Below the pieces are notes generated by a model. The model searched no databases. It was given only the letters and a program-made list of their open reading frames with translations, and was not told where the DNA came from. This document shows positions 8,400 to 47,859 of a stretch of 64,000 bases of DNA, one piece after another. Source of the DNA: Achromobacter sp. Root83 (GTDB lineage: Bacteria; Pseudomonadota; Gammaproteobacteria; Burkholderiales; Burkholderiaceae_B); the NCBI RefSeq assembly GCF_001428845.1, contig NZ_LMIU01000023.1, forward strand, positions 1-64,000. The letters run 5' to 3'. Position numbers and translations under genes: made by a program. Positions within the stretch are counted from its first letter, which is position 1; every line of letters begins with the position of its first letter.

Positions 8400-9586
8400 G
8401 AGATTCGAAGGGAACGGAGAGGTTGGGCGAGCGCGGACAGTCCGGACTCGAGGTCGGCAATGAGATCCTCGGGATCTTCCAGGCCCACGTGCAGGCGCAG
8501 CATCGGGCCGCGCCGCACGCTGTCCGGCAGGGAGCGCGACGTGAGGCAGACCGGGATCACCAGGCTTTCGAAGCCGCCCCACGATGCGCCGATGCCAAAG
8601 AGCCGCAGGCTGTCGATCAGGCGTTCGGCATCGGACTCGGTATAGGCATCGGCCAACTCGACCGTCAGCAAGCCGTTCGCGCCGCTGCAGTCACGCAGCC
8701 AGATCGCGTGAGACGGATCGCCGGGCAATGCGGGGCAAAGCACGCGGGACACTTCGGGACGCGCCAGCAGCCAGTGGGCAAGCTGCAGGGCGCTACGGGC
8801 ATGCTGCGCCATGCGCAGCGGCAGCGAACGCATGCCTCGCAGCACCAGGAAGGCATCGTCGGCGCCGACCGTCTGACCGAAATCGATCGTGGCGCGCTCC
8901 AGCGGACGCCAGGCGCGTTCATTGGAGACGACCGCCCCCATCATCACATCGGCATGCCCGCTGAGGTATTTGGTTGCCGCCAGGATGGAGATATCGGCCC
9001 CGAGCGCGAGCGGGTTGTGTACCAATCCGGACGCCCAGGTGTTATCCACAGCCAGCCAGCAATCGTGTTCGCGCGCGACTGTGGATAACTTGGGGAGGTC
9101 CGGCATCTCATAGGTCATCGATCCCGGAGACTCGGCGTAGATCATCCGCGTGTTGGGCCGGATCAAGGCCTCAATGCCGGTGCCGTCGGGCGGGTAGTAC
9201 GTATGCTCGATACCCAATCGGACCAGATGTTCCGCGCAGAACCGGCGCACCGGCTCGTAGACGGCATCGGTAAGCAGCACATGGTCGCCCGCGCGCAAGT
9301 AGGCGAGCAGGACGGTGGCTATGGCGGCCTGCCCCGTTGGGTACAGCTTGGCGCGAAAGCCCTGCTCCAGCTCGATGAGCGCATCTTCCAGCGCATGCGT
9401 GCTGTCGGTGCCGCGGGCGCCGTAGGACGGCAGCCGCTCATGCTCGCGGCGCGCCCGCGTGTCGCGCCAGGCCTCCACGCTTTCATAGACATAGGTGCTG
9501 GCGCGCGTAACCGGGGTGTTGACCCAGCCTTTATGAGGGCGCCCTGCACGCAGCAGGCGCGTCGCGGACCGATAGGGCTTGTTCAT
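8396..9586 (-). CDS. metC: Cystathionine beta-lyase type PLP enzyme
   Basis: A 396-residue member of the Cys/Met-metabolism PLP family. The PLP lysine lies in ILAATKYLSGHADVMMG, and SYGARGTDSTHALEDALIELEQG matches the N-terminal region of cystathionine beta-lyases. Members cleave C-S bonds in cystathionine or related thioethers, releasing a thiol and pyruvate. The start MNKPYR at 9586 lies 2 bases past the stop of the dioxygenase gene; there is no strong ribosome site, so it probably relies on coupling. Two exact DnaA boxes lie inside the gene (9042 and 9080). The symbol is by family resemblance only; another C-S lyase activity is possible. Confidence 0.87.
   Translation of the reverse strand: MNKPYRSATRLLRAGRPHKGWVNTPVTRASTYVYESVEAWRDTRARREHERLPSYGARGTDSTHALEDALIELEQGFRAKLYPTGQAAIATVLLAYLRAGDHVLLTDAVYEPVRRFCAEHLVRLGIEHTYYPPDGTGIEALIRPNTRMIYAESPGSMTYEMPDLPKLSTVAREHDCWLAVDNTWASGLVHNPLALGADISILAATKYLSGHADVMMGAVVSNERAWRPLERATIDFGQTVGADDAFLVLRGMRSLPLRMAQHARSALQLAHWLLARPEVSRVLCPALPGDPSHAIWLRDCSGANGLLTVELADAYTESDAERLIDSLRLFGIGASWGGFESLVIPVCLTSRSLPDSVRRGPMLRLHVGLEDPEDLIADLESGLSALAQPLRSLRIS
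9042..9050 (+). promoter_or_regulatory. DnaA box (exact TTATCCACA)
   Basis: Exact match to the strong DnaA box, inside the cystathionine-lyase gene and facing a second exact box 29 bases away. Confidence 0.55.
9080..9088 (-). promoter_or_regulatory. DnaA box (exact TGTGGATAA)
   Basis: Exact box in inverted orientation to the one at 9042, also intragenic. Confidence 0.55.
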
Positions 9587-9588
9587 GA

Positions 9589-10176
9589 TCAGCGGCGCGT
9601 CTGTACGCCAATGGGCATGACCTTGCACGTGCCGGTCTCCAGGTCGAAACCCAGACGCTCGTTCAGTGTTTCCAGCGCGCGCCCGTACATATGCAGGTGG
9701 CGGATGACGCTGTCGCCCTGGATCTCGACGGCATGGATGTCGTCCGGCATCAGCGCGATGCCGGCGCCGGGGCCCACCACGACGGTGCCGGTCTTTTCCA
9801 GCTTGCCCACGCCGGGCACGGAGCCGTCATCGGTACGGTCGTAGACATAGTTGTATTCCACGCCCTCGACGGCGGCGATACAGGCCCAGGTGGTGTGATT
9901 GTGCGGCACGATCTTTTTGCCCGGACGCATCACGTTCAGGTAGAGCGCATAGCTTTTGTCTGCGTCTTCGGCGATGAGGTAACGCGCCTGGCGCTCTTCC
10001 CCCTCCGGCGCCGGATAGCGGTCGGCGGCCCACCATGCGGTGTTGCCGGCCAAGGCCACGAGTTCATCCAGAACCGTTTGGAGGCTGTCGCGGTTCAGGC
10101 CCTTATTTCCTACAGTTTTTTTAATATTTCCAACCGCGCTGTCGATGCCGGCCTGTTGGGGATGTGCTGTGCTCAT
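9589..10176 (-). CDS. Cysteine-dioxygenase-like cupin (thiol dioxygenase)
   Basis: A 195-residue cupin resembling cysteine/3-mercaptopropionate dioxygenases, which oxidise a thiol to a sulfinate with non-haem iron. Likely iron ligands are H92 and H94 (PHNHTTWAC) and H148 (DDIHAVEI). C99 is seven residues after H92, the spacing of the cysteine that crosslinks to tyrosine in mammalian CDO, and Y164 (HLHMY) could be its partner. The Ser-His-Tyr triad of CDO appears as His-His-Tyr (H160, H162, Y164). It is the first gene of the sulfur operon and is divergent from a LysR regulator. Whether cysteine, mercaptopropionate or another thiol is used is not decided by the sequence. Confidence 0.85.
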
Positions 10177-10263
10177 TCTGTGTTTCCCTCGTGATTCATG
10201 AGTTATTGCACTTACTTTATCGCCCGGGCCCTACGCCAACAATTTAAATTGGCTTAACATTCC

Positions 10264-10278
10264 ATTAGCATTACTAAT
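10264..10278. promoter_or_regulatory. Candidate LysR operator in the divergent promoter region
   Basis: ATTAG-N5-CTAAT is a perfect dyad fitting the T-N11-A rule for LysR-type regulators. It lies in the AT-rich 153-bp gap between the thiol-dioxygenase operon (minus) and the LysR gene (plus), the expected place for a site controlling both. Confidence 0.5.
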
Positions 10279-10329
10279 ATTTTGGGTATTCCCTTAGCCG
10301 CTTTCCTCGGCCTTTATTGAGTGTCTGGC

Positions 10330-11205
10330 ATGCGTAATCTGGATCTGGACCTGCTCCGCACGCTGACGGCGATCGCCCAGCATGAAACGTTTTCCGAGGC
10401 CGCCAACCGCTTGCACAAGACGCAGTCGGCCATCACCCAGCAGATGCAGCGGCTGGAATCCATGATTGGCCTGCCCCTGTTCGAGAAACAGGGGCGTAAC
10501 AAGCTGCTGTCGTCGCATGGGCGGCGACTGGTCGAGTACGCGCGCCATATGCTGGCCATCAACGATGAAGCGCTTCGCGCCTTGCAGGACGGGCAACTGG
10601 AGGGGGATCTTCGGCTAGGCGCCCCGCTGGACGTGGCAGACACCATACTGCCCACCCTGCTCACCCACATCGCGCGCTCTGCCCCGCGCGTGAAACTGGA
10701 AATTCGCGTGGACCGCAGCCCCTTCCTGATGGATGCGCTGCGCGCCGGGGAAATCGACCTGACCATTTCCACCCGCTTCGACCAAGACTTCGAAGGCGTC
10801 GCGCTACGCACTTCGCCCACGGTGTGGTTGGCGTCGGCCGACTATGTGCATGACATGCATGCGCCGGTCCCGCTGGTGCTGGCCGATGACCCCAGCATCT
10901 TCCGCCGCCTGGCGCTCAACGCACTGGAGCAGGCGCGCGTACGCTGGCACACCAACTACGTGGCGCCCAATCTGGTGGGGATAAAGGCCGCGTTGCGGGC
11001 CGGTCTGGGTGTGACGGCCCGCAGCGTGGAGCTGCTGGGACCGGAAATGCGCGTGCTTGGAGAAAAGGAAGGGCTGCCGCCGCTTCCGGACGTGACGTAC
11101 TTCCTGTGGATAAGGCGCGACCTGATCAATCCGCTGACGCGGCAGGTCTACGACATGCTCAGGACCAACCTAGGGCTGGCACAGCAAGGCGACGCGACGG
11201 CATAG
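10330..11205 (+). CDS. LysR-family transcriptional regulator of the sulfur operon
   Basis: A 291-residue LysR-type regulator. The N-terminal winged helix-turn-helix reads LLRTLTAIAQHETFSEAAN followed by KTQSAITQQMQRLESMIG, and the C-terminal part is a periplasmic-binding-protein-like effector domain. The start at ATG 10330 was preferred; a GTG nine bases earlier is in frame. The divergent arrangement with the dioxygenase-lyase-rhodanese operon suggests it activates that operon in response to a sulfur compound. An exact DnaA box (11105) lies near its 3-prime end. It converges on the asparaginase gene with only 16 bp between the stops. Confidence 0.92.
   Translation: MRNLDLDLLRTLTAIAQHETFSEAANRLHKTQSAITQQMQRLESMIGLPLFEKQGRNKLLSSHGRRLVEYARHMLAINDEALRALQDGQLEGDLRLGAPLDVADTILPTLLTHIARSAPRVKLEIRVDRSPFLMDALRAGEIDLTISTRFDQDFEGVALRTSPTVWLASADYVHDMHAPVPLVLADDPSIFRRLALNALEQARVRWHTNYVAPNLVGIKAALRAGLGVTARSVELLGPEMRVLGEKEGLPPLPDVTYFLWIRRDLINPLTRQVYDMLRTNLGLAQQGDATA
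11105..11113 (-). promoter_or_regulatory. DnaA box (exact TGTGGATAA)
   Basis: Exact match inside the LysR gene. Confidence 0.5.
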
Positions 11206-11221
11206 CCGTCACGGCAGGCTT

Positions 11222-13182: not shown

Positions 13183-14007
13183 TCAGGCGTCCGTCTGCTC
13201 GGCGGGCAGACGGTACCAATACGCGTAACAGTCTTTGAAACCGTAGCGGCCATACAAAGCACGCGCGGCGGTGTTTTCCGGCTCGACCTGCAAATAGGCC
13301 GTCTTGGCTCCGCCGGCGGCACCTTCGGCCAATAGGTGTTCCACCAGGACGGCGGCGTAGCCTTTGCGCCGCTGTCCCGGGTCGGTGACGATATCGAACA
13401 AGCCAAGCAGGTCGTCGTCGCGAACGGCCAGGCCCGCGGCAACGCACTGCCCTGCCGCGTCAATGGCAAGCACCGGCTGGATATCCACAGCCAGTCCCAG
13501 CAGACGCGCCTGGTGTTCACCGATGTGCCCGGCCGACGAACCGCGCATGGCCCCGACCGCCGCCGCGAAGCGTCCGGCATCGACATTCTTGAAATGCAGA
13601 TCGCCCCTGGCGCAGGTCCGGGGGGCGAGCGGCGTGCTCATGACTCGGGTCTCACCGGTGAAGGTATAACCGCGGGACTCCAGCTCGGCGTCGAGCGAAA
13701 AATCGGGGCCGATGGAGGTAATGCGCAACACCATGGGCAAGCCATGGCGCGCATACAACGATGAACAATACGCCAGGCGCTCGTCCAAAGGACGTGTGGA
13801 TAACCCCAGCACATTTACACTGCGCACGCGCCTGGCAGGCGACGGCGCGAAGCGCACCAGCCAGCCATCATAAAGCACCTGCGCGTTGACCGCCGTAGCG
13901 TTCAGCGCGGCCTCTTCGAGGCGCGCGCGCAGGGCGTCGCGCGCCTCGGCCTGCGGCGTGCTGCTAGCGTGCGTTTGTGTCGGGGAAAAGAGCGCGGTGA
14001 CGGACAT
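13183..14007 (-). CDS. GNAT-family acetyltransferase inserted between parA and parB
   Basis: A 274-residue protein whose C-terminal half is a GNAT fold: LLGLFDIVTDPGQRRKGYAAVLVEHL is the acetyl-CoA motif and NTAARALYGRYGFKDCYAYWY the terminal strand-helix. The N-terminal 110 residues may be a second, degenerate GNAT-like half. It lies 10 bp after parA and 43 bp before parB on the same strand, so it is part of the partition operon. The substrate is unknown. An exact DnaA box (13795) lies within it. Confidence 0.88.
   Translation of the reverse strand: MSVTALFSPTQTHASSTPQAEARDALRARLEEAALNATAVNAQVLYDGWLVRFAPSPARRVRSVNVLGLSTRPLDERLAYCSSLYARHGLPMVLRITSIGPDFSLDAELESRGYTFTGETRVMSTPLAPRTCARGDLHFKNVDAGRFAAAVGAMRGSSAGHIGEHQARLLGLAVDIQPVLAIDAAGQCVAAGLAVRDDDLLGLFDIVTDPGQRRKGYAAVLVEHLLAEGAAGGAKTAYLQVEPENTAARALYGRYGFKDCYAYWYRLPAEQTDA
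13795..13803 (-). promoter_or_regulatory. DnaA box (exact TGTGGATAA)
   Basis: Exact match inside the GNAT gene of the par operon. Confidence 0.5.
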
Positions 14008-17476: not shown

Positions 17477-17492
17477 TGTTTCACGTGAAACA
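17477..17492. other. parS: parS site 1
   Basis: TGTTTCACGTGAAACA, the exact palindromic consensus for chromosomal ParB, 57 bases upstream of mnmG. It may also let ParB affect the mnmG-par promoter. Confidence 0.95.
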
Positions 17493-17603
17493 TGTTCCGT
17501 TGCGGCATCTAGGTCAAAGATCGAATTCCCTTGTTGAGATTTGACCGTGCCACCGGCGGCTGGGGGTCCAATATGTCGGCATCTGCCGCTGTTTCGGGGT
17601 TCA

Positions 17604-17619
17604 TGTTTCACGTGGAACA
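17604..17619. other. parS: parS site 2
   Basis: TGTTTCACGTGGAACA, one base from the perfect palindrome. Confidence 0.95.
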
Positions 17620-17657
17620 TGGTTATTGTTGACCGGACCAAAGACGGCGAAGGGGGA

Positions 17658-17673
17658 TGTTTCACGTGGAACA
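17658..17673. other. parS: parS site 3
   Basis: TGTTTCACGTGGAACA, 54 bases from site 2, just before the hexanucleotide repeat. Confidence 0.95.
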
Positions 17674-17712
17674 TTACGCGTAACGTTCGTTGGCGAGACG
17701 TGCGCAGGTAGT

Positions 17713-17775
17713 CGGGTGCGGGTGCGGGTGCGGGTGCGGGTGCGGGTGCGGGTGCGGGTGCGGGTGCGGGTGCGG
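17713..17775 (+). repeat. Hexanucleotide tandem repeat (CGGGTG), about 10.5 copies
   Basis: Ten uninterrupted copies of CGGGTG plus a partial one, between parS sites 3 and 4. Any frame through it would encode a simple two-residue repeat, but no credible gene spans it. Such arrays usually vary in copy number between isolates. Confidence 0.97.
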
Positions 17776-17963
17776 TTATCGGTGTGCCGCTGTCGTGACG
17801 GCATACTCCGGCGCCTCTTGGGCGCCGCTAGCCGTCGTGGGTACGCACGATTCCCAACGAACGCCCGGATGGCTCAAGCCATCAAGCGATTCCAAGGCTG
17901 TGTCATTGCTGGGCTAATGGCCAATACAGCTTCAGAAAATGCCCTCTACCCTCGCGCCGCACA

Positions 17964-17979
17964 TGTTTCACGTGGAACA
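17964..17979. other. parS: parS site 4
   Basis: TGTTTCACGTGGAACA, 69 bases from site 5. Confidence 0.95.
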
Positions 17980-18032
17980 ACGCAACTTCCGATTGTCAAT
18001 TTTTTCCTCACGGAGGTCCTTCTAGGGGCACA

Positions 18033-18048
18033 TGTTTCACGTGAAACG
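18033..18048. other. parS: parS site 5
   Basis: TGTTTCACGTGAAACG, with one departure at the last position. Confidence 0.92.
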
Positions 18049-18342
18049 TCACATGAGCATCGCCAACCCACCGAGTTCGCTACTAACAATTCGCCTACGG
18101 CCTGTTCGCCCAAGTGTGGAAACCTTAGGCATCGCACTGGACGACGACAAATACCGTGCGGCGTACACTCAGCACGCCCGCAACGCGCAGCCCGTCCACA
18201 GACGCTACGTTTGCCTGGGAGAAACGGCCTCACTCCAAAAGACTTCACCCCCGAACATACAGCCTGACCAGGGCGGGTCATCCCAGCCGATTCTTCTATC
18301 GTCCATAGGAGAAGGCCTCGGCGGGCGACAACGGAGGCGGCA

Positions 18343-18358
18343 TGTTTCACGTGGAACA
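18343..18358. other. parS: parS site 6
   Basis: TGTTTCACGTGGAACA. Confidence 0.95.
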
Positions 18359-18407
18359 TCATCCTCGGTGAATGAGAAATTGTGCGTTCACGGAAACGGC
18401 TTTGCGA

Positions 18408-18423
18408 CGTTTCACGTGAAACA
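18408..18423. other. parS: parS site 7
   Basis: CGTTTCACGTGAAACA. A degenerate half-match (GTTCACGGAAAC) lies about 10 bases upstream of it. Confidence 0.92.
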
Positions 18424-18826
18424 CACCACAACCAACCTCGCTTCAATGGCTTCGAGCGGAGGGGTAGCGCTATTTCCGCACGGTTCGTCTCGAAAGGCTC
18501 TCACTTTCTTCCTTAATCCGACAACAGCCCCATTTTCAGAGAAAGGTAAAAATTGAGAAAAATATCGATTTATTCCACCCTACCCTACCCTATGCCCAAA
18601 AAAAGACCTTTTTCTTTCTAGGTGGGGCGAAGAGAGCAAAGGTTGGACCATCACTTTTCGAGATTCACCCCAATCAACTGATTGCGATAAGTACGCGAAC
18701 AGTACTCCGGTGCGCAAGCGGGCCAAATAACCCCGTCCCAGTATGAGTTCCGCTGCATAGAAAGTGATCAGATGGCCACCACGTCAGCAACCGTTCCGAC
18801 GTCACTCTCTTTACTGAACACCGGGC

Positions 18827-18835
18827 TTATCCACA
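18827..18835 (+). promoter_or_regulatory. DnaA box (exact TTATCCACA) in candidate oriC
   Basis: Exact box about 250 bases from the AT-rich stretch; a one-mismatch copy (TTATCAACA) follows at 18907. Confidence 0.75.
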
Positions 18836-18950
18836 GATTCAGCAGGGATGGCAGTCATAGGGAAAACTGGCGATTTTGGGATAGCGTGTGGAAGTTACGC
18901 ACACATTTATCAACAGAGACCCACCACCCCACGGATTTGTCAGGTCCGGA

Positions 18951-18966
18951 CGTTTCACGTGGAACA
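18951..18966. other. parS: parS site 8
   Basis: CGTTTCACGTGGAACA. It lies among the DnaA boxes, so the centromere and the candidate origin overlap. Confidence 0.93.
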
Positions 18967-19259: not shown

Positions 19260-19268
19260 TTATCCACA
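19260..19268 (+). promoter_or_regulatory. DnaA box (exact TTATCCACA) in candidate oriC
   Basis: Second exact box of the cluster. Confidence 0.75.
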
Positions 19269-19707
19269 GTGTTGTTCCGTCAACTGACCGCACTGTCGCT
19301 CGCCAGATCTGAATAAGCGGTTTGCTTGACCCAACAATTATCTTCCTCGGACTGCCGCCGACGCGCCATCATCCATATGGCCGAGGAAGGCGCCGTATTG
19401 GTAAACCCTGTGGAAAAGTGGTGGGCGGGTGGCGGGTACGCCATGGGCGTAAAACAACTGACAGCCGGCCGCTACGTCCATCAGCGCTCCCGCGATTGGA
19501 CAAATGCCGCGACCCGAAAGATGGATCTTGGCCGTCTATCCCCATTTCTATCCACAGGCACAGTCCCCTTATTTTGACTACTCAAGGGTGTAATTCTGTG
19601 CATAACCGGGGTGGGGATATCTTTGTGAACAACAACGCCCAACGCGCCTTGAAGCAGCCTGAAAATCACCGTAAGCATCTGCCGCCCGCTTAGGAAGAGC
19701 GCGTAGG

Positions 19708-19731: not shown

Positions 19732-20006
19732 AGCTAGTTTTCCCTGGGAAAAGCGATCTTTCTACTAAAACCGGACAGGTATATCCAATATCGCCGGGCA
19801 CGACTGGATCATTAAGAAAGGGAGTTTGGATAAGCAGGAAAACTGTGCAAAACTCGCCATCGACGGGGACATATGCTTCATTATTGCGCATCAAAATCCA
19901 CGGCCTTGGAAATAATTGTCCACAGACTTATCCAAGGCTGGAGAGTGTGTTAGTAAGCACTAACTTTCATCTCGCACCAGCTGAAAATAATGGCGGCCCA
20001 AACGAC

Positions 20007-26176: not shown

Positions 26177-27664
26177 TCAATTTCGGCCGTTTTCGTGACG
26201 CGCCGCAGCATTCCGCTCCAAACCCAGGGTAAACACCAACGCTGCTCGCAGCCCCGGTAGCGGAACCCGGTTCTCCAGGACCAGGCGGGCGCCCAGCATT
26301 TCGGCAATGGTGCCCACGATCGCCAGGCCCAGGCCAGCGCCCGGCTTGTTCTTGCCTGCCGCGCCCCGGCGGAACCGGACGCAGGCCCGGGCGATATCCT
26401 CGGCGGACATGCCGGGGCCGTCATCCTCTACGACCAGCCGCGCTTCCCCGGCTGCGACCTGGATCCTTACGGTGACCACCCCGCCCGTGGACGCATAGCG
26501 GATGGCGTTATCGACCAGGTTGCTGACCGCTTCCCGCAGCAGCCACTCGGCTCCACTGACCGCCACGGGTCGCTGATCGGCTTCCAGGCCGATATCGAGT
26601 TGCCGGCCGCGGGCGCTGGGAAGCAGTCCCCGGATGACCCCGTCAGCCAGGTCCACCAGATCCACGGGTTCGGGGGTGAATCCACCTTCGGCCAGGGAAG
26701 CGTCCTTGGCGCGCGCCAGGGCGAGCATCTGGTTGGTGGTGCGTACGGCCCTGTCCAACCCCTCTTGCATCGCCAGAAGGGCTGTACGGACCTCCTGGGG
26801 GTCTGTTTCGCGCAGGGCATATGCCGTCTGGGTCCGCAAAACCGACAATGGCGTGCGCAACTGATGCGATGCGTCGTCCAGGAACTGGCTTTGAACCCTC
26901 CCCAACGCCGCAAAACGGGCCATATGGAGATTTACGGCGGCAACCAGGGGTAGGACCTCACCTGGCATGTCGGAAGCGCTCACGGGGCTTAAATCGTCCG
27001 CGGAACGTCCTTCGACCTCCTGGCGGAGCCGGACGAGGGGACGCAAGGCCATGAAAACGCCCAGCACGATCACCAGAACGCTGATCAGGATCACTGCCAG
27101 GTCGCGTTCCACGGAACGCACCAGCACCTTGTGGAGAAACGCCTGACGGCTTTCCAGCCCTTCGGCCACCTGCACGATGACCCGTCCCCCTTTGTTCGCG
27201 TACAGCGGCGGATCCATGGGCCGAGCCAGGGCGGCAACCCTGACCGGCGACCCCTGGTAAGTCGCGTAGAAAAACCGCGGTTCGCCGGAGACCAGCGGCT
27301 GGTCCGGCATGGGCAGGTCGGCGTGGCCGATTTCGGCCAGCCCGTCCTCTGTCGCGACCCGGTAGAAAACGCTGCCATTGGCCGTGAGCTCGAAAAATTC
27401 CAGCATCAGGTATGGCTGCTCCATGGCTAATCCACCGCTGGCTGTGGATATGTTGTGGTCGATCGCGCGCAGCGCTCCAGAGAGCGACCGGTCGTACGCA
27501 CTGTCGACCTGGTTGCGCAATTGGTGGTTCGACAGCCACAGGGCGCCCATCATCACGAAGACGAGCGTAGGAATCAGCCACCAGAGCAACTGGCTTTTCA
27601 GCGTCCGATTTCGTTTTTTCGTCGCAAAAAAAGCGTTTTTTTTCGGACTTCTAGTTGTCAACAA
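26177..27664 (-). CDS. tctE: Sensor histidine kinase TctE
   Basis: A 495-residue membrane kinase. A first membrane helix spans about residues 25-45, a periplasmic sensor follows, and a second helix lies near 188-208. H267 in FLDDASHQLRTPLSVL is the phosphorylated histidine; NLVDNAIRYA, VEDDGPGM and GAGLGLAIV are the N and G boxes. There is no ATG near the N-terminus: two adjacent TTG codons (27664, 27661) follow a GGAG site and are the likely start, giving a 14-bp overlap with tctD. Three homopolymer runs (T6, A7, T8) sit in the first 25 codons. It probably senses citrate, alone or through TctC. Confidence 0.92.
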   Translation of the reverse strand: MLTTRSPKKNAFFATKKRNRTLKSQLLWWLIPTLVFVMMGALWLSNHQLRNQVDSAYDRSLSGALRAIDHNISTASGGLAMEQPYLMLEFFELTANGSVFYRVATEDGLAEIGHADLPMPDQPLVSGEPRFFYATYQGSPVRVAALARPMDPPLYANKGGRVIVQVAEGLESRQAFLHKVLVRSVERDLAVILISVLVIVLGVFMALRPLVRLRQEVEGRSADDLSPVSASDMPGEVLPLVAAVNLHMARFAALGRVQSQFLDDASHQLRTPLSVLRTQTAYALRETDPQEVRTALLAMQEGLDRAVRTTNQMLALARAKDASLAEGGFTPEPVDLVDLADGVIRGLLPSARGRQLDIGLEADQRPVAVSGAEWLLREAVSNLVDNAIRYASTGGVVTVRIQVAAGEARLVVEDDGPGMSAEDIARACVRFRRGAAGKNKPGAGLGLAIVGTIAEMLGARLVLENRVPLPGLRAALVFTLGLERNAAARHENGRN

Positions 27665-28328
27665 GGTTCTCCAGGCAGTAGCCCATGCCTCGCATGGTCA
27701 CGATCTGAACGCCGGTTTCCGCCAATTTTTTGCGCAATCGGTGAACCAGGACCTCGATGGCTTCCAGGTTGATGTCCGCATCGTGGGTAAGGATGCGGTC
27801 AAGAATCTGCTGTTTGTTGATGGGTTCCCCGCTTTTCTGAATGAGAACCCGAAGCACCGCATGTTCACGTGGGGATAACTGCAAAGGCTGTCCGCTGACC
27901 GTGAATTTCTGCGCGGAGGTTTCAAAAACCAGGTTTCCCAGCGCAAGGCGCGGATGTTCACGCCCGCGACTGCGGCGAATGAGCGCAATCAGCCGGGCCT
28001 CGAGTTCTTCCAGGACAAACGGTTTTGGCAGGAAATCGTCCGCTCCCTGGTGAAGCGTTCCGATTCTTTCGGCCAATGAATCGCGCGCGGTCAGGACCAG
28101 CACCGGCGTACGGTCGTCTCGCGCGCGAATCTTCGCCAGCAAGGTATGGCCGTCCATGCCCGGAAGTCCGAGATCCAGGATGACCGCGTCGAATTCTTCA
28201 ATTGCCAGCCGTCTTTCGGCAACCAGTCCGTCATCGGCCCATTCGACGACAAAGCCGGCATGCCTGGCCAGGCTTCGGGCAAGCCAAAGGGCGAGTTCGG
28301 CTTCGTCTTCGATCAGAAGGATACGCAT
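27651..28328 (-). CDS. tctD: OmpR-family response regulator TctD
   Basis: A 225-residue response regulator. The receiver domain has the acidic pair E7-D8, the phospho-acceptor D52 (VILDLGLPGMDG) and K at the PKPF motif. The C-terminal winged helix ends with the RLRKKL-MRGMGYCL type segment. Overlap with tctE points to one two-component unit activating tctCBA just downstream. In Salmonella tctDE is divergent from tctCBA; here all five genes run in one direction. Confidence 0.95.
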   Translation of the reverse strand: MRILLIEDEAELALWLARSLARHAGFVVEWADDGLVAERRLAIEEFDAVILDLGLPGMDGHTLLAKIRARDDRTPVLVLTARDSLAERIGTLHQGADDFLPKPFVLEELEARLIALIRRSRGREHPRLALGNLVFETSAQKFTVSGQPLQLSPREHAVLRVLIQKSGEPINKQQILDRILTHDADINLEAIEVLVHRLRKKLAETGVQIVTMRGMGYCLENLVDN

Positions 28329-28425
28329 GGACGCAGTCCGGGGGGCAGTGGCTGGGCGGAATGGGAAAGCATGTTTGGCTTTTCCTTTATTTCTCTTTAT
28401 ATAAAGACTAATGATTAATAAGGCC

Positions 28426-28434
28426 TGTGGATAA
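28426..28434 (-). promoter_or_regulatory. DnaA box (exact TGTGGATAA)
   Basis: Exact box at the edge of an AT-rich tract, upstream of tctD. Confidence 0.6.
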
Positions 28435-28606
28435 CTACCTTAACCTTGAAAACCTCTTTTTTTTCATCAGCTTGCGAAGCTTTTTGCCTGTGCACGAACT
28501 CTGTGTGGGAAAAAAGCTGAAGTTGGACAAGATTTTGGACCCTATCCAAAACCCCCGCTTGTTCAACTAGGCTCCACAACATGTGCACAACCTGCCGCCT
28601 TAGGAG

Positions 28607-28615
28607 TTATCCACA
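28607..28615 (+). promoter_or_regulatory. DnaA box (exact TTATCCACA)
   Basis: Exact box in the same intergenic region, opposite orientation. Confidence 0.6.
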
Positions 28616-34826: not shown

Positions 34827-35752
34827 ACACGCCCGCCACCCCCGCCACCGCTGCCGCGCCGCCTTCTTCCGCCAAGGAACAATCGCCCTGGCGCCGTTTC
34901 GTCGCCGATTTCTTTGCCAGCAAGCTGGCCACGCTGGGCCTGGTGATGTTGGTCGCGATCGTGGGCGCCGCGCTGCTGGCGCCATGGATCGCGCCGCAGA
35001 ATCCCTATGATCTGGCCAGTCTGGACATCATGGATTCCAAGCTCAAGCCGGGCAGCGAAAGCGGCGACGGCTCCATGCGCCACTGGCTGGGCACCGATGG
35101 CCAGGCGCGGGATCTGTTGTCTGCCATTCTTTACGGCATGCGCACGAGCCTGATGGTGGCCACCGTGTCCGTGCTGGCTGCCTTTGGCATCGGCGCCACG
35201 GTGGGGCTGATAGCGGCGTATTTTGGCGGGCGCATCGATGCCTTGCTGATGCGGGTTGTGGATATCCAGTTGTCGTTCCCCGCCATTCTTGTCGCCCTGA
35301 TGCTGCTGGCTATCCTGGGCAAGGGTGTGGATAAGGTGATCATCGCGCTGATCGTCGTGCAATGGGCCTACTTTGCCCGCGCGGCGCGCGGTGCGGCGCT
35401 GGTCGAGCGCGGCAAGGAATACGTGGAGGCGGCGCGCTGCATGTCGCTATCCTGGGGGCGCGTGCTGTTCCGCCATGTGCTGCCGAACTGTATGCCGCCC
35501 CTGATCGTGATCGCCACGATCGACCTGGCCCACGCTATCGCACTCGAAGCCACCCTTTCGTTCCTGGGGGTGGGCGTGCCGGTGACCGAGCCGTCGCTCG
35601 GCATGCTCATCTACAACGGCTTCGAGTACCTGCTGTCTGGCCAATACTGGATTTCCTTCTTCCCCGGCATTGCGCTGGCGCTGGCCATCATTGCCATCAA
35701 TCTGGTGGGCGACCATCTGCGCGATGTGCTCAACCCGCGCCACGCGAACTGA
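34823..35752 (+). CDS. Dipeptide-type ABC transporter permease (DppC family)
   Basis: A 309-residue permease of the DppC/OppC group: a soluble N-terminal stretch, a first helix near residue 40 and five more. The loop RAARGAALVERGKEYVEAARCMSLSW is the EAA-type contact with the ATPases. An exact DnaA box (35326) lies within the gene. Confidence 0.92.
   Translation: MNTPATPATAAAPPSSAKEQSPWRRFVADFFASKLATLGLVMLVAIVGAALLAPWIAPQNPYDLASLDIMDSKLKPGSESGDGSMRHWLGTDGQARDLLSAILYGMRTSLMVATVSVLAAFGIGATVGLIAAYFGGRIDALLMRVVDIQLSFPAILVALMLLAILGKGVDKVIIALIVVQWAYFARAARGAALVERGKEYVEAARCMSLSWGRVLFRHVLPNCMPPLIVIATIDLAHAIALEATLSFLGVGVPVTEPSLGMLIYNGFEYLLSGQYWISFFPGIALALAIIAINLVGDHLRDVLNPRHAN
35326..35334 (-). promoter_or_regulatory. 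DnaA box (exact TGTGGATAA)
   Basis: Exact match inside the DppC-type permease gene. Confidence 0.5.
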
Positions 35753-37889: not shown

Positions 37890-37898
37890 TTATCCACA
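37890..37898 (+). promoter_or_regulatory. DnaA box (exact TTATCCACA) at the start of the M20 gene
   Basis: Exact box that ends three bases before the ATG of the amidohydrolase gene, so DnaA binding could affect its expression. Confidence 0.55.
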
Positions 37899-37901: not shown

Positions 37902-39101
37902 ATGAAAACCATAGCCGAAATCGAACGCGTACACGGAGACCTCACCGCATTGCGCCGGGATATCCATGCGCATCCTGAACTGGCGTTCCAGGAAACGCGC
38001 ACCTCCACGCTGGTGGCCGAGCGTTTGCGCGGCTGGGGGCTGGAAGTGCATACGGGGCTGGGGAAAACCGGCGTGGTGGGCGTGTTGCGGTCAGGCAGCG
38101 GCAAGAAGACCATCGGGCTGCGCGCCGACATGGACGCGCTGCCGATGCCCGAACACAACCGCTTCGCGCATAAGTCCACGATCAGCGGCCGCATGCATGG
38201 CTGCGGCCATGACGGGCACACGACGATGCTGCTGGGCGCCGCCCAGTACCTGTCCACGCACCGGAACTTCGACGGCACGGTCGTGTTCATCTTCCAGCCC
38301 GCCGAAGAAGGCGGCAACGCCGGCGCCCGCGCCATGATGCAGGACGGCCTGTTCGACAAGTTTCCCTGCGATGCGGTGTTCGGCATCCACAACATGCCCG
38401 GCATGCCCGTCAACCAGTTCGGCTTCCGTTCCGGCCCGACGATGGCATCCAGCAATCGCTGGGACATTGTCATCAAGGGCGTCGGCGGCCACGCGGCGCA
38501 ACCTCATGCGTCCGTCGATCCCATCATCGTCGCGGCCGACATGGTGCATGCGCTTCAGACCGTGATCTCGCGCAGCAAGAATCCGCTGGATCAAGCGGTG
38601 CTGTCGATCACGCAGATCCACGCGGGCGACGCGTATAACGTGATTCCCGGCGAAGCGGTGCTGCGCGGCACGGTACGCACGTATTCGGTTGAAACGCTGG
38701 ACAAGATAGAAGCCGACATGCGGCGCATCGCCACCACCTTGCCGCAGGTCTATGGCGGCACGGGCGAACTGGATTTCGTCCGCGCCTATCCGCCCCTGGT
38801 GAACTGGGAAAAGGAAACGGCTTTCGCGGCGCAGGTTGCCGAAGACGCCTTCGGCGCCGAGAATGTGCTGCGCGACATGCCGCCCTTCATGGGCGCCGAG
38901 GACTTCTCGTTCTTCCTGGAAGCGATTCCGGGCGCCTATCTGTTCCTGGGCAATGGCGACGGCGACCATCGCATGGAGAGCTATCACGGCATGGGGCCCT
39001 GCCAGCTTCACAACCCCAATTACGACTTCAACGATGCCCTGCTGCCGGTGGGGGCGAGCTATTGGGTGAAGCTTGTCGAAGCGTTCATGCCGGCGCCGTA
39101 A
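37902..39101 (+). CDS. M20-family metallo-amidohydrolase (hippurate hydrolase type)
   Basis: A 399-residue M20D hydrolase cleaving N-acyl amino acids or related amides. Metal-site motifs: MHGCGHDGHTTMLLG (the two-histidine site), FQPAEEGGNAGARAMM (catalytic Glu) and FMGAEDFSFF near the C-terminus. It follows the peptide-type importer after 111 bp, so it probably deacylates the imported substrate. A terminator hairpin follows the gene. Confidence 0.92.
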   Translation: MKTIAEIERVHGDLTALRRDIHAHPELAFQETRTSTLVAERLRGWGLEVHTGLGKTGVVGVLRSGSGKKTIGLRADMDALPMPEHNRFAHKSTISGRMHGCGHDGHTTMLLGAAQYLSTHRNFDGTVVFIFQPAEEGGNAGARAMMQDGLFDKFPCDAVFGIHNMPGMPVNQFGFRSGPTMASSNRWDIVIKGVGGHAAQPHASVDPIIVAADMVHALQTVISRSKNPLDQAVLSITQIHAGDAYNVIPGEAVLRGTVRTYSVETLDKIEADMRRIATTLPQVYGGTGELDFVRAYPPLVNWEKETAFAAQVAEDAFGAENVLRDMPPFMGAEDFSFFLEAIPGAYLFLGNGDGDHRMESYHGMGPCQLHNPNYDFNDALLPVGASYWVKLVEAFMPAP

Positions 39102-40190: not shown

Positions 40191-40219
40191 AAATGTGGCC
40201 GCCCACGGCGCCCCACCAC

Positions 40220-40228
40220 TTATCCACA
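40220..40228 (+). promoter_or_regulatory. DnaA box (exact TTATCCACA) upstream of the SsuA-type gene
   Basis: Exact box just before the ATG at 40238, overlapping the ribosome-site region. Confidence 0.55.
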
Positions 40229-40237
40229 AGGAACGCC

Positions 40238-41281
40238 ATGCGTTTGTCCTCTGCATTACGGGATCGACTGGTCCAAACCGCCACAGGCGCTGGCCTGGCG
40301 CTGATTCTTGCCGTGCTGGCGTTGGCCTCGCCCACGCCCGCGATGGCCGAAGGGCGCATCCGCATCGCCGAGCAATACGGCATTGTGTATTTGCTGCTGA
40401 ATGTGGCGCGCGATCAGCAGCTCATCGAAAAGCACGGCAAGGCCGAAGGTGTGGATATCTCGGTGGAGTGGGCGAAGTTGTCCGGCGGCTCGGCGGTGAA
40501 CGATGCGTTGCTGTCGGGCGCCGTGGATATCGCCGGCGCCGGCGTGGGACCGCTGCTGACCATCTGGGACCGGACGCACGGCAAGCAGAATGTGAAGGGC
40601 GTGGCGTCGCTGGGCAATTTTCCCTATTACCTGGTCAGCAACAACCCGAACGTGAAGACGATCGCGGACTTCACGGACAAGGACCGCATCGCGGTGCCGG
40701 CGGTGGGCGTATCGGTGCAGTCGCGCGTGCTGCAGCTAGCCTCGGCCAAGCTGTGGGGCGACGCCCAGTTCAACAAGCTGGACAAGATCTCGGTGGCGTT
40801 GCCGCATCCGGACGCCGCCGCGGCGATCATCGCGGGCGGCACGGAGATCACGGGTCATTTCGGCAACCCGCCCTTCCAGGAGCAGGAACTGGCCGAGAAC
40901 CCGAAGGCGCGCATCGTGCTCAATTCCTATGACGTGCTGGGCGGCCCCAGCTCGTCCACCGTGTTGTTCGCCACCGAGAAATTCCGCCGCGACAATCCCA
41001 AGACCTACAAGGCCTTCCAGGAAGCGCTGAAAGAAGCCGCGGCATTTGCCGCCGCCGATCCCGAGAAGGCGGCGGATATCTATCTGCGCGTCACGGGCGC
41101 CAGGCAGGACCGCGACTTCCTGATCAAGGTGATCAAGAATCCCGACGTGCAGTTCAAGCTGCAACCCCAGAACACGTTCGCGCTGGCCGAGTTCATGCAC
41201 AAGGTGGGCGCGATCAAGAATGCGCCGGCTAGCTGGCGCGACTACTTCTTCGACGATCCCCTCACCGCGCAGGGAAGCTGA
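40238..41281 (+). CDS. ABC transporter substrate-binding protein (SsuA/TauA/NMT1 type)
   Basis: A 347-residue periplasmic receptor with a signal peptide (hydrophobic LALILAVLALASPTPAMA). GRIRIAEQYGIVYLLLNVARD and ELTIT-like GGTEITGHFGNPPF regions resemble nitrate/sulfonate/taurine receptors. It is the first gene of a receptor-ATPase-permease trio 47 bp after the dioxygenase gene. Confidence 0.9.
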   Translation: MRLSSALRDRLVQTATGAGLALILAVLALASPTPAMAEGRIRIAEQYGIVYLLLNVARDQQLIEKHGKAEGVDISVEWAKLSGGSAVNDALLSGAVDIAGAGVGPLLTIWDRTHGKQNVKGVASLGNFPYYLVSNNPNVKTIADFTDKDRIAVPAVGVSVQSRVLQLASAKLWGDAQFNKLDKISVALPHPDAAAAIIAGGTEITGHFGNPPFQEQELAENPKARIVLNSYDVLGGPSSSTVLFATEKFRRDNPKTYKAFQEALKEAAAFAAADPEKAADIYLRVTGARQDRDFLIKVIKNPDVQFKLQPQNTFALAEFMHKVGAIKNAPASWRDYFFDDPLTAQGS

Positions 41282-41282: not shown

Positions 41283-42113
41283 ATGGGCCTGAGCGCCGCC
41301 GCCCCTGTGGATAAGGTTGAAAAGGCCAGGCCCTTGCTGGCTGTGGATAAGGTGTCCATCGAATATAAGACGCGTGAACGGCGCGTTCGCGCGACCCATC
41401 AGGTGAGCTTCGATGTGCACGGCGCCGAGCGCTTCATCCTGCTGGGACCGTCCGGCTGCGGGAAGTCGACGCTGCTCAAGGCGATCGCCGGATTCATCGA
41501 ACCGACCGAAGGGCGCATCGCGATCGACGGCAAGCGCGTCCAGGGGCCGGGCCCGGACCGCATCGTGGTGTTCCAGGAATTCGATCAGCTTCCTCCCTGG
41601 AAGACCCTGCGCCAGAACGTCGCGTTTCCGCTGCTGGCCTCGCGCAAGCTGAGCCGGCGCGAGGCCGACGAACGCGCGATGCACTATCTGGACAAGGTGG
41701 GCCTGTCCGCGTTCGCCGACGCCTACCCCCACACCCTTTCCGGCGGCATGAAGCAGCGCGTGGCCATTGCCCGGGCGCTGGCCATGCAGCCGCGCGTGCT
41801 GTTGATGGACGAGCCCTTCGCGGCACTGGACGCATTGACGCGCCGGCGCATGCAGGAAGAACTGATGGCCTTGTGGGAAGACGTGCGCTTCACCCTCTTG
41901 TTCGTCACCCATTCGATCGAAGAGGCGCTGGTGCTGGGCAGCCGCGTGCTGCTGCTGTCGCCGCATCCCGGGCGCGTGCGCGCCGAATTGAACGCGCATG
42001 GCTTCGACCTGCACAGCCAGGGCTCGGCGGCCTTCCAGGCAGCCGCAAGACGCATCCACGACCTGTTGTTCGATGCGCCCTCGCCCGCGCATGCCGAACG
42101 CGTGGCCGCTTGA
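41283..42113 (+). CDS. ABC transporter ATPase (SsuB/TauB type)
   Basis: A 276-residue ATPase: Walker [16 protein letters not shown]-loop FQEFDQLPPWKTL, signature [15 protein letters not shown], Walker B VLLMDEPFAALD. The Q-loop F-Q-x-x-x-L-P-W pattern is typical of nitrate/sulfonate/taurine systems. Two exact DnaA boxes lie in its first 70 bases. Confidence 0.93.
   Translation: MGLSAAAPVDKVEKARPLLAVDKVSIEYKTRERRVRATHQVSFDVHGAERFILLGPSGCGKSTLLKAIAGFIEPTEGRIAIDGKRVQGPGPDRIVVFQEFDQLPPWKTLRQNVAFPLLASRKLSRREADERAMHYLDKVGLSAFADAYPHTLSGGMKQRVAIARALAMQPRVLLMDEPFAALDALTRRRMQEELMALWEDVRFTLLFVTHSIEEALVLGSRVLLLSPHPGRVRAELNAHGFDLHSQGSAAFQAAARRIHDLLFDAPSPAHAERVAA
41306..41314 (-). promoter_or_regulatory. 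DnaA box (exact TGTGGATAA)
   Basis: First of two tandem exact boxes near the start of the SsuB-type gene. Confidence 0.55.
41342..41350 (-). promoter_or_regulatory. DnaA box (exact TGTGGATAA)
   Basis: Second tandem box, 36 bases after the first. At the protein level both boxes fall in a repeated Val-Asp-Lys-Val codon context. Confidence 0.55.
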
Positions 42114-43085: not shown

Positions 43086-44531
43086 CTACAGGGTCAATCC
43101 CAGCGCGCGGGCCACGCCCGCGGCGTAGGCGGGATCGGCCTTTCTGAAGTGCTCGAGCTGACGACGCTGGATTTCCTCGGGCACGCCGGCCATGTGGCGG
43201 CCGATATTGCCGAACAGCAGTTCCTGCTGCGCCGGCGTCATCAGACGGAACAAGGCGCCGGGCTGCGAGTAGTAGTCGCCATCGACCCGGTGGTTCCAGC
43301 GGGCGGCGGCCTGGCCGTCGAGCGCCAGGGGCGGTTCGCCCGCCGACGGCGTTTCCTTCCATTCGCCCGCGCTGTTGGGCTCGTAGTTCAGCGTGCGGCC
43401 CGCATTGCCATCCACGCGGCCGGCGCCGTCGCGGTGGAAACTGTGGACCGGGCATCGCGGCGCATTCACCGGAATCTGGTGGTGGTTGATGCCGAGGCGG
43501 TAGCGGTGCGTGTCGCCATAGGAGAACAGGCGGCCCTGCAGCATCTTGTCCGGCGAAAAGCCGATGCCGGGGACCACGTTCGCGGGGGTGAACGCGGCCT
43601 GTTCGACTTCCGCGAAGTAATTCTCGGGGTTTCTGTTCAGTTCGAGCACGCCGACCTCGATCAGCGGATAGTCGCCGTGAGGCCAGACTTTGGTCAGGTC
43701 GAAGGGGTTGATGTGATAGGTCGCGGCCTCGGCTTCGGGCATGACCTGCACGTTCAGCGTCCACTTCGGGAAGTTGCCCTGCTCGATGTTGTCGAAGAGG
43801 TCGCGCTGCGAACTCTCGCGATCGTGGGCGACCACTTGCGCGGCTTCCTCGTCGCTCAGACAGGCGATGCCCTGCTGCGACTTGAAGTGGAACTTCACGT
43901 AAAAGCGCTCGCCGTCACCGTTGATGAAGCTGAAGGTATGCGAGCCAAAACCGTGCTGCTGGCGCAGATTGGCGGGAATGCCGCGGTCGCTCATGAGCGT
44001 GGTGACCTGATGCAGCGATTCTGGATTGAGCGACCAGAAGTCCCAGGCGGCGGTGGCGTTGCGCAGGTTGGTTCTGGGGTCGCGCTTCTGGGTGTGGATA
44101 AAGTCGGGAAACTTCAGCGGGTCGCGGATGAAGAAGACGGGCGTGTTGTTGCCCACCAGGTCCCAATTGCCTTCGTCGGTGTAGAACTTGATGGCGAAGC
44201 CGCGAACGTCGCGTTCGGCGTCGGCCGCGCCGCGTTCACCGGCCACGGTGGAAAAGCGAAGAAACAGCGGGGTCTGCTTGCCAACCTGGGAAAACAGGCG
44301 GGCACGGGTGTAGCGTGAGATGTCGTGGGTGACGGTGAATGTGCCGTAGGCGCCGGAGCCCTTGGCATGCACGACGCGCTCGGGAATGCGTTCGCGGTCG
44401 AAATGGGCAAGTTTTTCAATCAGCCAGAAGTCTTCCAGCAGCGCGGGGCCGCGCGGGCCGGCAGTCAGCGTGTTGTTGTTGTCCGGCACCGGCGCGCCCG
44501 AGGCGGTGGTCAGAGGCTTCTTGTCGGTCAT
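43086..44531 (-). CDS. katA: Monofunctional haem catalase (small-subunit, KatA type)
   Basis: A 481-residue clade-3-type catalase decomposing hydrogen peroxide. Catalytic histidine in [20 protein letters not shown], distal Asn in [13 protein letters not shown] with VGNNTPVFF, and the proximal haem tyrosine in [14 protein letters not shown]. The start MTDKKPLTT has a GGGAG site. It stands alone, so it is probably induced by peroxide. Confidence 0.96.
44093..44101 (-). promoter_or_regulatory. DnaA box (exact TGTGGATAA)
   Basis: Exact match inside katA. Confidence 0.5.
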
Positions 44532-44670: not shown

Positions 44671-44775
44671 GTTGATTGATCTGCCAAAGACAATTAATAA
44701 TAACTATCAAAGCCTGTCTTGGGCATAGAAAATGCTGAGCAGGCCATTCCCCTTTTTTGTGGACGGGCGCAAAAA

Positions 44776-44800
44776 AAAACCGGCCCAGGAGGCCGGTTTT
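44776..44800 (-). terminator. Factor-independent terminator of the rpmH-yidC operon
   Basis: AAAACCGGCC and GGCCGGTTTT form a 10-bp stem with a 5-base loop; on the minus strand nine T follow. It lies 17 bp after yidC. Confidence 0.9.
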
Positions 44801-44817
44801 TCGTACGGGGGCGCCGA

Positions 44818-46497: not shown

Positions 46498-46545
46498 GGT
46501 GCCTACTGAAGTGAATACGGGCCAGCAAAGCCCGCCAGTTTAGCG

Positions 46546-46818
46546 TCAATCGTGCTCGGTGCGGTGGCTGTGGGAGCAGCACGGGGCGTCATTGGTTCCC
46601 TTGGCCGGCGGAACCGGATCCAACCCGCCGGGCGACCACGGATGGCAACGGCCGATGCGCCGGACCGCCAGCCAGAGGCCGCGCCAGGCGCCATGGCCTT
46701 CGATCGCCTCGATCGCGTAAGCCGAGCAAGTGGGAGTAAAGCGGCATTGCCTGCCGATCCAGGGACTCAGGAAAAACCTGTAGAACCGGATCGGGGCAAT
46801 GAGTAGAGCCTTGATCAT
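46546..46818 (-). CDS. yidD: Membrane protein insertion efficiency factor YidD
   Basis: A 90-residue small protein with the family core [27 protein letters not shown] and the three conserved cysteines. The C-terminal tail [11 protein letters not shown] could bind metal. The start overlaps the rnpA stop by four bases; yidC starts 48 bp after its stop. Confidence 0.95.
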
Positions 46819-47186
46819 CGCGCGATCCGCTCAAAGTGAGCGTCCACTTCGGCTCGTGCCGAGCGTTTCAGCGCGGTGAGCGTGGCGGGGGTGACCTTGC
46901 TATGCAGGCGCACGACGTAATCTTTTGCCGGCAACGCCAGGCGCCGATGGCGAAACGCTTCGCGGATGACCCGCTTCAGCGCGTTACGCGTACTGGCGTG
47001 GGCAGCGAACCGCTTGGCGATCACCAGCCCCAGGCGGGCACAGGCATCCTGGCCGGGAGGCAGATCATTGGGAGCCGAGCTCACAATGAAGAACGCCCCT
47101 CGGGCAAGACGCCGGCCTTTGAGGGCGGCGGCGAACTCGGAGGGGCGATGCAGCCGCGCCTCCGGTGGAAGCGTGGAGCGCGGCAT
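46815..47186 (-). CDS. rnpA: Ribonuclease P protein component
   Basis: A 123-residue basic protein, the protein subunit of RNase P that matures tRNA 5-prime ends. The RNR-like box is [26 protein letters not shown] is the adjacent family block. The start [12 protein letters not shown] at 47186 fits the usual length. It follows rpmH by 110 bp. Confidence 0.95.
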
Positions 47187-47296
47187 GGACTGCGGGTCAG
47201 GCGTTTGCGCGGAACCGGAACAGGATTGCGAGAGGTCTTGCAATATGGCCGGTCCGTGCAGATAGTCAGGTTTCCGGAAAACCGGAAAACCAGGAC

Positions 47297-47431
47297 TTAG
47301 ACGGCCAGACGCTTGCGGCCCTTGGCGCGACGGGCGCTCAGGATGGCGCGGCCAGCGCGGGTTTTCATGCGCACGCGAAAGCCATGGGTGCGCTTGCGGC
47401 GGGTAACGGAAGGTTGGTAGGTACGTTTCAT
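47297..47431 (-). CDS. rpmH: 50S ribosomal protein L34
   Basis: A 44-residue, very basic protein read directly from the minus strand: it begins [18 protein letters not shown] and ends KGRKRLAV. The length and sequence are those of bacterial L34. It heads the rpmH-rnpA-yidD-yidC operon and is divergent from dnaA. Confidence 0.98.
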
Positions 47432-47544
47432 GGACGATCCACAAAAAGAACAAAAGTCAGAAGGGACCTGCCCGGAGGGTTCCAGGTCGCGAAGTTCAGA
47501 AGCGGGTATCTAAAGAGCAACTTTTGCGTAGCATTCTTGCGTCA

Positions 47545-47591
47545 GGTGCAAAAAACAACCTGTGCGAAAACAACCGGTGCAAAAAACAACT
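47545..47591 (+). repeat. Three tandem 15-16-bp iterons upstream of dnaA
   Basis: Contiguous copies GGTGCAAAAAACAACC, TGTGCGAAAACAACC and GGTGCAAAAAACAACT. Each begins with a sequence one mismatch from the relaxed DnaA box on the minus strand, so they may be low-affinity DnaA sites. Confidence 0.85.
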
Positions 47592-47610
47592 CGTGTAGAC
47601 GGGGCTCTGG

Positions 47611-47647
47611 ACCGAGAATTTCTTCTCGGTGCTCTGAGAATTTCTTC
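47611..47647. repeat. Palindrome and 12-bp direct repeats upstream of dnaA
   Basis: ACCGAGAA and TTCTCGGT (47611-47630) form a dyad with a four-base centre. GAGAATTTCTTC occurs at 47614-47625 and again at 47636-47647, 22 bases apart (two helical turns), as for cooperative protein binding. Confidence 0.7.
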
Positions 47648-47850
47648 CCAGGCGACCTATTCAGCAAAGCTAAAAACCGGACAATTGACCAGCGAGGCAT
47701 CAATGAAGACACCACTTTCTGGCAAGCCCGGCTAAGCTCTCTGTGAAACCTTCTGACAGACAGAATTCGGAAAAGCCCACCATTTCAGCAAGTTTTCCCT
47801 GTCTTGTCAAACAGTTAAGCCAGGCAAGTGTAGACGCTTGCGCCCTACCC

Positions 47851-47859
47851 TGTGGATAA
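47851..47859 (-). promoter_or_regulatory. DnaA box (exact TGTGGATAA) upstream of dnaA
   Basis: Exact box just before dnaA; DnaA commonly represses its own gene through such a site. Confidence 0.75.

Follow-up and report, generated by a model that had tools for sequence, protein, structure and literature searches.

The first 64,000 nucleotides of contig 23 (NZ_LMIU01000023.1) of Achromobacter sp. Root83, which we analysed as a whole and call the window, contain a dispersed array of perfect copies of the DnaA box, TTATCCACA. Family matches identify mnmG, parA (below the model cut-off), parB, mnmE, dnaA, dnaN, gyrB, yidC, and rnpA (NCBIfam), together with GidB, TctA, TctB, TctC, and a cold-shock domain (Pfam); the dnaA gene occupies positions 47889–49361. 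All 15 exact boxes that the first-pass annotation had listed are present where it had placed them, and no further exact box occurs anywhere in the window. The same annotation had put the chance expectation at well under one, and dinucleotide shuffles of the window agree, averaging 0.13 copies and never exceeding 1. When up to one mismatch is allowed, 42 boxes are found, against 4.6 expected, and they span positions 9042–50847.

The entire genome (6.21 Mb in 28 contigs) has 28 exact boxes, 15 of them in a 39-kb part of the window; contig 23 holds 16, i.e., those of the window and one at 70236. A control word, the reversed TTATCCACA, occurs 15 times in the genome. Sixteen stretches of 20 kb from other contigs, chosen by us and lying at unknown distances from the origin, contain no exact box in 320 kb, and an equal density elsewhere, which the annotation had considered as an objection, is thereby refuted. 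One-mismatch boxes in these stretches number 15, or 3.0 per 64 kb compared with 42 in the window.

The origin of replication (oriC) appears to lie at about 28393–28615, with a TctD-like regulator gene on one side and a ClcB-like gene on the other. Its core is formed by the inverted boxes at 28426 (minus strand) and 28607 (plus strand), and the stretch left of 28426 is AT-rich and trio-like, which we take to be the unwinding element; in an alignment with 10 other genera, such a stretch comes after the box when read on the box strand. Twelve genomes of the same genus were aligned to the window, with 82–87% identity where alignable (one more congener, G093, stands outside this alignment). Across these 12, positions 28400–28450, with a guanine-plus-cytosine (GC) fraction of 0.32, are 99% identical, and both core boxes are kept in 12 of 12. 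The minimum of the cumulative GC skew in the contig is at 28697, 0.2 kb from the pair, and a second measure, the best split, gives 27200, at a distance of 1.3 kb. Measured on local stretches of 43–144 kb per genome and not on whole chromosomes, the skew minimum is no farther than 0.3 kb from the pair in 13 of the 23 genomes; with a limit of 2 kb the number rises to 17, and in the other six the minimum is 4.6 to 48 kb away.

A pattern search detected the inverted pair in 49 of the 81 family genomes, representing 31 of 43 genera, most of the matches listed being 187–190 bp long; the reversed pattern gave no match in the same 81 genomes. An order-wide search found the pair in 6 of 120 genomes, two of the six being members of the family. 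Upstream of mnmG, box starts are 180–181 bp apart in Advenella alkanexedens (L005), Pusillimonas (L015), and an Alcaligenaceae bacterium (L035), and the pair has a spacing of 157–159 in the Burkholderiales loci L002, L009, L011, and L030; 58 of the 80 named Burkholderiales mnmG loci have no exact box at all, and some of the others have boxes without the pair. That TTATCCACA is read by some protein other than DnaA is very improbable, given that the word builds the oriC core in those 49 family genomes and fits the DnaA-box consensus TTWTNCACA, as given in an excerpt of Olivi et al. (2025; PMC12371093).

In its inverted pair of fixed spacing and its skew minimum, the origin matches the mnmG (gidA)-region oriC of the Alcaligenaceae type, whereas in its closeness to mnmG it does not: this gene is 11 kb from oriC here, whereas in L005, L015, and L035 the distance is about 1.5, 2.1, and 5.1 kb, respectively. 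Gene order and the presence of the pair in Advenella and Pusillimonas would fit the family Alcaligenaceae; the best MnmG matches, from a set that may lack near relatives, were to Noviherbaspirillum and Oxalicibacterium. The AT-rich stretch between mnmG and cspA (18–20 kb) was considered as oriC and rejected, the boxes at 28426 and 28607 being the family-wide core at the local skew minimum; this stretch is better seen as a parS cluster with extra boxes, and the location of the origin in the region is corrected. Two oriC-type pairs 0.4–3.6 kb apart, an arrangement that resembles a duplicated core, were observed in G022, G028, G044, G047, G061, G067, G088, and G090.

If oriC is the 28426/28607 pair, the array is centred on it, extending from −19.5 to +19.3 kb about a centre at 28.5 kb. 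All 15 window boxes lie within 25 kb of oriC, and 13 of these are non-core, against 0.11 expected. The non-core boxes are single or paired (9042/9080, 18827/19260, 41306/41342), and the pairs and singles are kilobases apart.

Most of the sites are conserved beyond the codons in which many of them are embedded. The 13 alignable boxes are kept at 115 of 137 sites in the congeners, compared with a fraction of 0.27 for same-phase neighbours, and the objection that the boxes might be no better conserved than the surrounding codons fails. Outside oriC, 11 boxes are exact at 91 of 113 orthologous sites, and the eight coding boxes alone at 63 of 81, against a control mean of 0.238. For each of these sets (13, 11, and 8 coding boxes), none of 20,000 same-phase draws reached the observed conservation; the controls are nine-base words in the same phase within 600 bp, and with non-independent relatives the result is no formal probability. 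The mean conservation of nine-base words across the window is 0.294, and when the 771 words that are aligned six times or more are ranked by conservation, the DnaA box and words overlapping it take places 1, 2, 5, and 6. A per-base profile gives 0.96–1.00 identity at the nine box positions and 0.66–0.94 in the flanks; it covers 8 non-core sites of the 13 aligned, picked as well kept and hence high by choice, with 9080, 37890, 44093, and the oriC pair excluded.

These data also bear on the view that the boxes are leftovers or products of chance, arising from the base composition or the codon usage of the origin region. One site fits it, namely the word at 44093–44101 (minus strand) in a catalase gene, where the peptide FIHT is conserved and the DNA word is kept in only 2 of 11 relatives; we regard this copy as probably fortuitous and have rejected it as a member of the array. 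For the array in general, the view is hardly credible in the face of the shuffles, the reversed words, the control stretches of the same genome, the conservation of the word, and the retention of a rare codon at 13795.

Among the coding sites, the box at 9042–9050 (plus strand) in a cystathionine beta-lyase gene is kept in 10 of 10 alignable congeners, and only 1 of 395 same-phase local windows is equally conserved. A second box in the same gene, at 9080–9088 (minus strand), is clade-specific (4 of 10 congeners). The box at 11105–11113 (minus strand), close to the 3′ end of a LysR-type gene, is kept in 10 of 10, and its ATA codon is retained in all 11 alignable genomes, including our own. At 13795–13803 (minus strand), in a GNAT gene between parB and parA, the box is kept in 12 of 12, and TTA TCC ACA is found in 13 of 13 genomes. 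The codon TTA is rare, with 8 occurrences among the 1164 leucine codons of 25 genes in this genome; of these eight, two belong to exact boxes and one to a near-box. The box at 35326–35334 (minus strand) in an ATP-binding cassette (ABC) permease (dppC-like) gene is exact in 9 of 12. Two boxes in one ABC ATPase gene, at 41306–41314 in its first codons and 36 nucleotides on at 41342–41350 (both minus strand), are exact in 8 of 8 congeners; each box is constant at all nine bases, although the neighbouring residues vary (P or A, K or N; A, R or L). In the congener G003, the lyase and LysR orthologues are found on another contig in another arrangement, where both boxes are absent and ATG replaces ATA; this is a single case from a more diverged genome, on a contig that is not placed relative to the origin. 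The genes with conserved boxes have unrelated functions, and the pattern suggests that short words inside such protein-coding genes are under selection as DNA.

Some near-boxes are conserved as well. ATATCCACA is conserved in 12 of 12 congeners at 27443–27451 (minus strand) in a sensor kinase gene and in 11 of 12 at 35257–35265 (minus strand) in an ABC permease gene, and TTATCCCCA in 11 of 12 at 27870–27878 (minus strand) in a response-regulator gene. Those at 27443 and 27870 are situated inside the box-poor zone of 23.5–33.5 kb.

Several other sites are located near gene starts or between genes. The box at 47851–47859 (minus strand) in the dnaA leader, an autoregulation-type position, is kept in 11 of 11 congeners; it is a weak case, the surroundings being generally conserved and 91 of 313 local windows as conserved as the box. 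The annotation had described the boxes at 37890 and 40220 as abutting start codons. This is correct for the former, 37890–37898 (plus strand; exact in 6 of 9), which ends 3 nucleotides 5′ of the amidohydrolase ATG at 37902. The latter, 40220–40228 (plus strand; exact in 11 of 12), falls inside the listed open reading frame 40193–41281, but AGGAA and then, in frame, an ATG at 40238 come after the box; it is probably in the 5′ leader, just ahead of where a sulfonate-binding-protein gene is likely to start. The mnmG–cspA intergenic region contains exact boxes at 18827–18835 and 19260–19268 (both plus strand) and is too divergent to align here, while all 12 congeners have unaligned exact boxes 8.7–9.9 kb left of oriC. 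At 19548–19605 two one-mismatch boxes, CTATCCACA (19548) and TTATGCACA (19597), are conserved in 10 of 11 and 11 of 11 congeners, respectively, and TTGTCCACA at 19916–19924 (plus strand), one base off in this genome, is exact TTATCCACA in 10 of 10 alignable relatives.

Such positions raise the question of whether each box is a DnaA operator tuning its own gene, in which case the array would be an origin-proximal group of genes under DnaA control. The box in the dnaA leader, those just 5′ of starts at 37890 and 40220, the two in first codons at 41306 and 41342, and the exact or near boxes upstream of mnmG would all suit this explanation. However, the conserved boxes at 9042, 11105, 13795, and 35326 are intragenic and, judged by gene layout alone, away from a likely promoter, and the host genes share no function by family matches. 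In E. coli, moreover, the enrichment of boxes is not solely due to clustering of DnaA-regulated genes, according to the same excerpt (Olivi et al., 2025, PMC12371093). We therefore consider the operator explanation unlikely for the array as a whole.

The annotation had proposed a dispersed titration or regulatory array for DnaA beyond a mere origin. This stands insofar as the enrichment is origin-specific and most sites are conserved beyond their codons; on the other hand, not all 15 boxes belong to the array. Those at 28426 and 28607 constitute oriC, the one at 47851 occupies the dnaA leader, those at 44093 and 9080 are kept in 2 of 11 and 4 of 10 relatives, respectively, and 18827 and 19260 are unalignable.

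The enrichment extends throughout the genus. All 13 of its genomes that were counted (our own included) have more boxes than expected, with 3 to 16 non-core exact copies within 25 kb of the pair compared with 0.1–0.2 expected from the box rate in the rest of the same genome. These counts leave out G009 (same genus), G028, G054, G039, G022, and G057; contigs end less than 25 kb from oriC in G003, G079, G086, and G095, and G037 was wrapped by us as circular. In the genus, the density per 100 kb is 32 at 5–10 kb, 37 at 10–15 kb, and 30 at 15–20 kb from oriC, declining to about 10 at 20–35 kb and 4–9 at 35–60 kb, while the reversed word yields 1 match in 1,250 kb of bins from the 13 genomes. Ten other genomes have 12 boxes per 100 kb in the first 5 kb and about 0–5 farther out. 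Among 14 pair-carrying genomes from 12 other genera, 12 have 0–2 such boxes once the 2.5 kb next to the core are set aside; these genomes were hand-picked among the carriers of the pair, and the comparison does not extend to the 32 of 81 family genomes in which no exact pair occurs.

Taken together, the sequence data show that the array is real, origin-centred, and under selection, and the function proposed for it is likely. We consider it more probable than not that it represents an origin-proximal DnaA-titration array of single high-affinity boxes flanking oriC, best developed in this genus. Binding of DnaA to such consensus boxes is known from other bacteria, and DnaA is predicted to bind the boxes of the array. 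Since 15 of the 28 perfect boxes are located within 20 kb of oriC, the array would be doubled soon after firing: forks that have moved 20 kb each way have duplicated these 15 boxes together with 0.64% of the genome, which takes 20–40 s at an assumed fork speed of 0.5–1 kb/s. Thus, within 20–40 s of firing, the forks would double the array boxes, and the sudden supply of new sites would pull free DnaA away from both daughter origins. Our search of the genome gave no match to SeqA, with a model that recovers the E. coli control, and one match to Hda above the cut-off; with no detectable SeqA, titration would impose a refractory period alongside Hda-driven inactivation of DnaA. For evenly spread sites, by a simple bound of our own, the gain in sites runs ahead of growth only at doubling times longer than C x ln 2, about 36–72 min here. 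That DnaA occupies the boxes, that they titrate it, and that a refractory period follows are inferences.

A number of observations weigh against titration. The density in the first 5 kb beside the core is only 3.9 per 100 kb in the genus, which is not a prediction of pure titration. Weak boxes outside the array, at about 3 per 64 kb or, by extrapolation, ~290 per genome, might dilute the effect. Three of the 13 non-core boxes are at gene starts or in leaders, and for these a transcriptional role is possible. By a hand count, 8 of the 13 non-core boxes are on the lagging strand, i.e., there is no clear strand preference, unlike in E. coli. Within the genus, G003 has the lowest count: the contig available for it, which ends nearby, carries only 3 boxes within 25 kb of the pair, and more follow at 27–58 kb; in G093, of which we had a partial view, the box at 11105 is kept, 9042 has one mismatch, and 9080 is absent. 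As the 12 of 14 genomes from other genera demonstrate, the array is not essential to a pair-type origin. Finally, boxes also accumulate elsewhere: G034 (8) and G055 (4) have more than the other 12 genomes of other genera, and in G028 (genus g17, contig 1, 3036793–3052874) at least 12 boxes lie less than 9 kb from oriC in addition to the core, two of which form a second pair. Origin-proximal boxes are hence not exclusive to the genus, whose distinction is their constant presence, number, and reach. In G034 (genus g23, contig 40, 33046–59342), the 8 boxes besides the core are mostly on one side, and its congener G071 has one; the arrays of G034 and G028 may reflect independent gain or loss.

The scarcity of boxes in the nearest 5 kb, their presence on both sides of oriC, and the inclusion of 8 parS sites and parAB in the array would suit an array that does not restrain initiation and instead concentrates DnaA near oriC, as an antenna aiding initiation, or organises the origin domain with parS/ParAB. 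Sequence alone cannot separate such a role from titration. Nevertheless, related genera with the same pair and no array presumably initiate normally, and we judge an antenna or architectural role to be improbable.

A stronger version of the titration hypothesis, which we advance only tentatively, is that the genus has evolved a DnaA sponge of single perfect boxes, in leaders and coding sequence to either side of oriC, that serves as the main post-initiation block, replacing SeqA. If so, near-origin genes would carry replication-control words selected as DNA, and the genus would provide a natural instance of the near-origin placement of titration sites that has been modelled and deemed absent from E. 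coli.

Origin-proximal enrichment of DnaA boxes has precedents. Around oriC of E. coli and Salmonella, boxes are more numerous than expected, are conserved in relatives, and were proposed to aid titration, as an excerpt of the original study states (Olivi et al., 2025, PMC12371093). The present array resembles this enrichment in that its density is far above that of the rest of the genome and persists without oriC and against permuted-word controls (here the reversed word and shuffles), and in that its sites are conserved. The E. coli analysis concerns degenerate motifs in windows of 2–10 centisomes (centisomes 98 to 5), according to the same excerpt (PMC12371093), whereas here exact boxes are concentrated in about 0.6% of the chromosome. 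A further difference from E. coli is that most sites here are kept individually, several are intragenic, and SeqA has no match. We regard the array as a new variant of origin-proximal DnaA-box enrichment. Among the papers listed on DnaA boxes and origins in Bordetella, Achromobacter, and betaproteobacteria, none describes such an array for this group in its title or abstract opening, which is no proof of absence.

Other systems of DnaA sites outside oriC are organised differently. The E. coli datA locus, whose high-affinity sites restrain initiation, is a single region of ~1 kb with five boxes and IHF, as summarised in an excerpt of a review (PMC5295017), whereas our array has no compact ~1 kb cluster of five exact boxes, with the mnmG–cspA stretch being denser if one-mismatch boxes are counted. 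In B. subtilis, deletion of all six DnaA-box clusters leads to early initiation (Okumura et al., 2012, via an excerpt of the review PMC5295017), and elsewhere the review assigns these clusters no significant role in initiation. The B. subtilis sites form six clusters outside the origin, while here mostly single boxes are kilobases apart, and the mnmG–cspA stretch is the only cluster-like one.

A related proposal is the autoregulated initiator-titration model of E. coli by Berger and ten Wolde (2022). According to an excerpt of that work (PMC9640692), only near-origin sites would stop premature reinitiation by titration at high growth rates, and its authors considered near-origin placement inconsistent with E. 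coli experiments; in contrast to E. coli, the genus studied here appears to have this placement. Whether titration alone can prevent re-initiation has been debated for decades, mostly for E. coli, where SeqA, datA, and DARS confound the issue. A genome with no detectable SeqA, in which more than half of the perfect boxes lie no farther than 20 kb from oriC, makes the question testable by comparison with related genera that have the same pair and mostly few such boxes.

Next to the boxes, as a neighbour outside the array proper, eight sites of the motif GTTTCACGTG[A/G]AAC, which we take to be parS, form a cluster at 17478–18965, 5′ of mnmG. These sites, between mnmG and cspA, are about 10 kb from oriC, so that centromere and origin are apart here. 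A perfect tandem repeat of the hexamer CGGGTG (10.5 copies, 17713–17775) is located within the parS region. Elsewhere in the genome, an inverted pair of exact boxes on contig 7 (75411/75425) was weighed as a possible DARS-like element and rejected, being a perfect hairpin after an open reading frame with a terminator-type look. This hairpin, at 75411–75433 (2011–2033 of locus L164), has an 18-bp stem consisting of the DnaA box and a free energy of −27.1 kcal/mol. Pairs spaced in the same way recur in most congeners, and also in G018 and G055.

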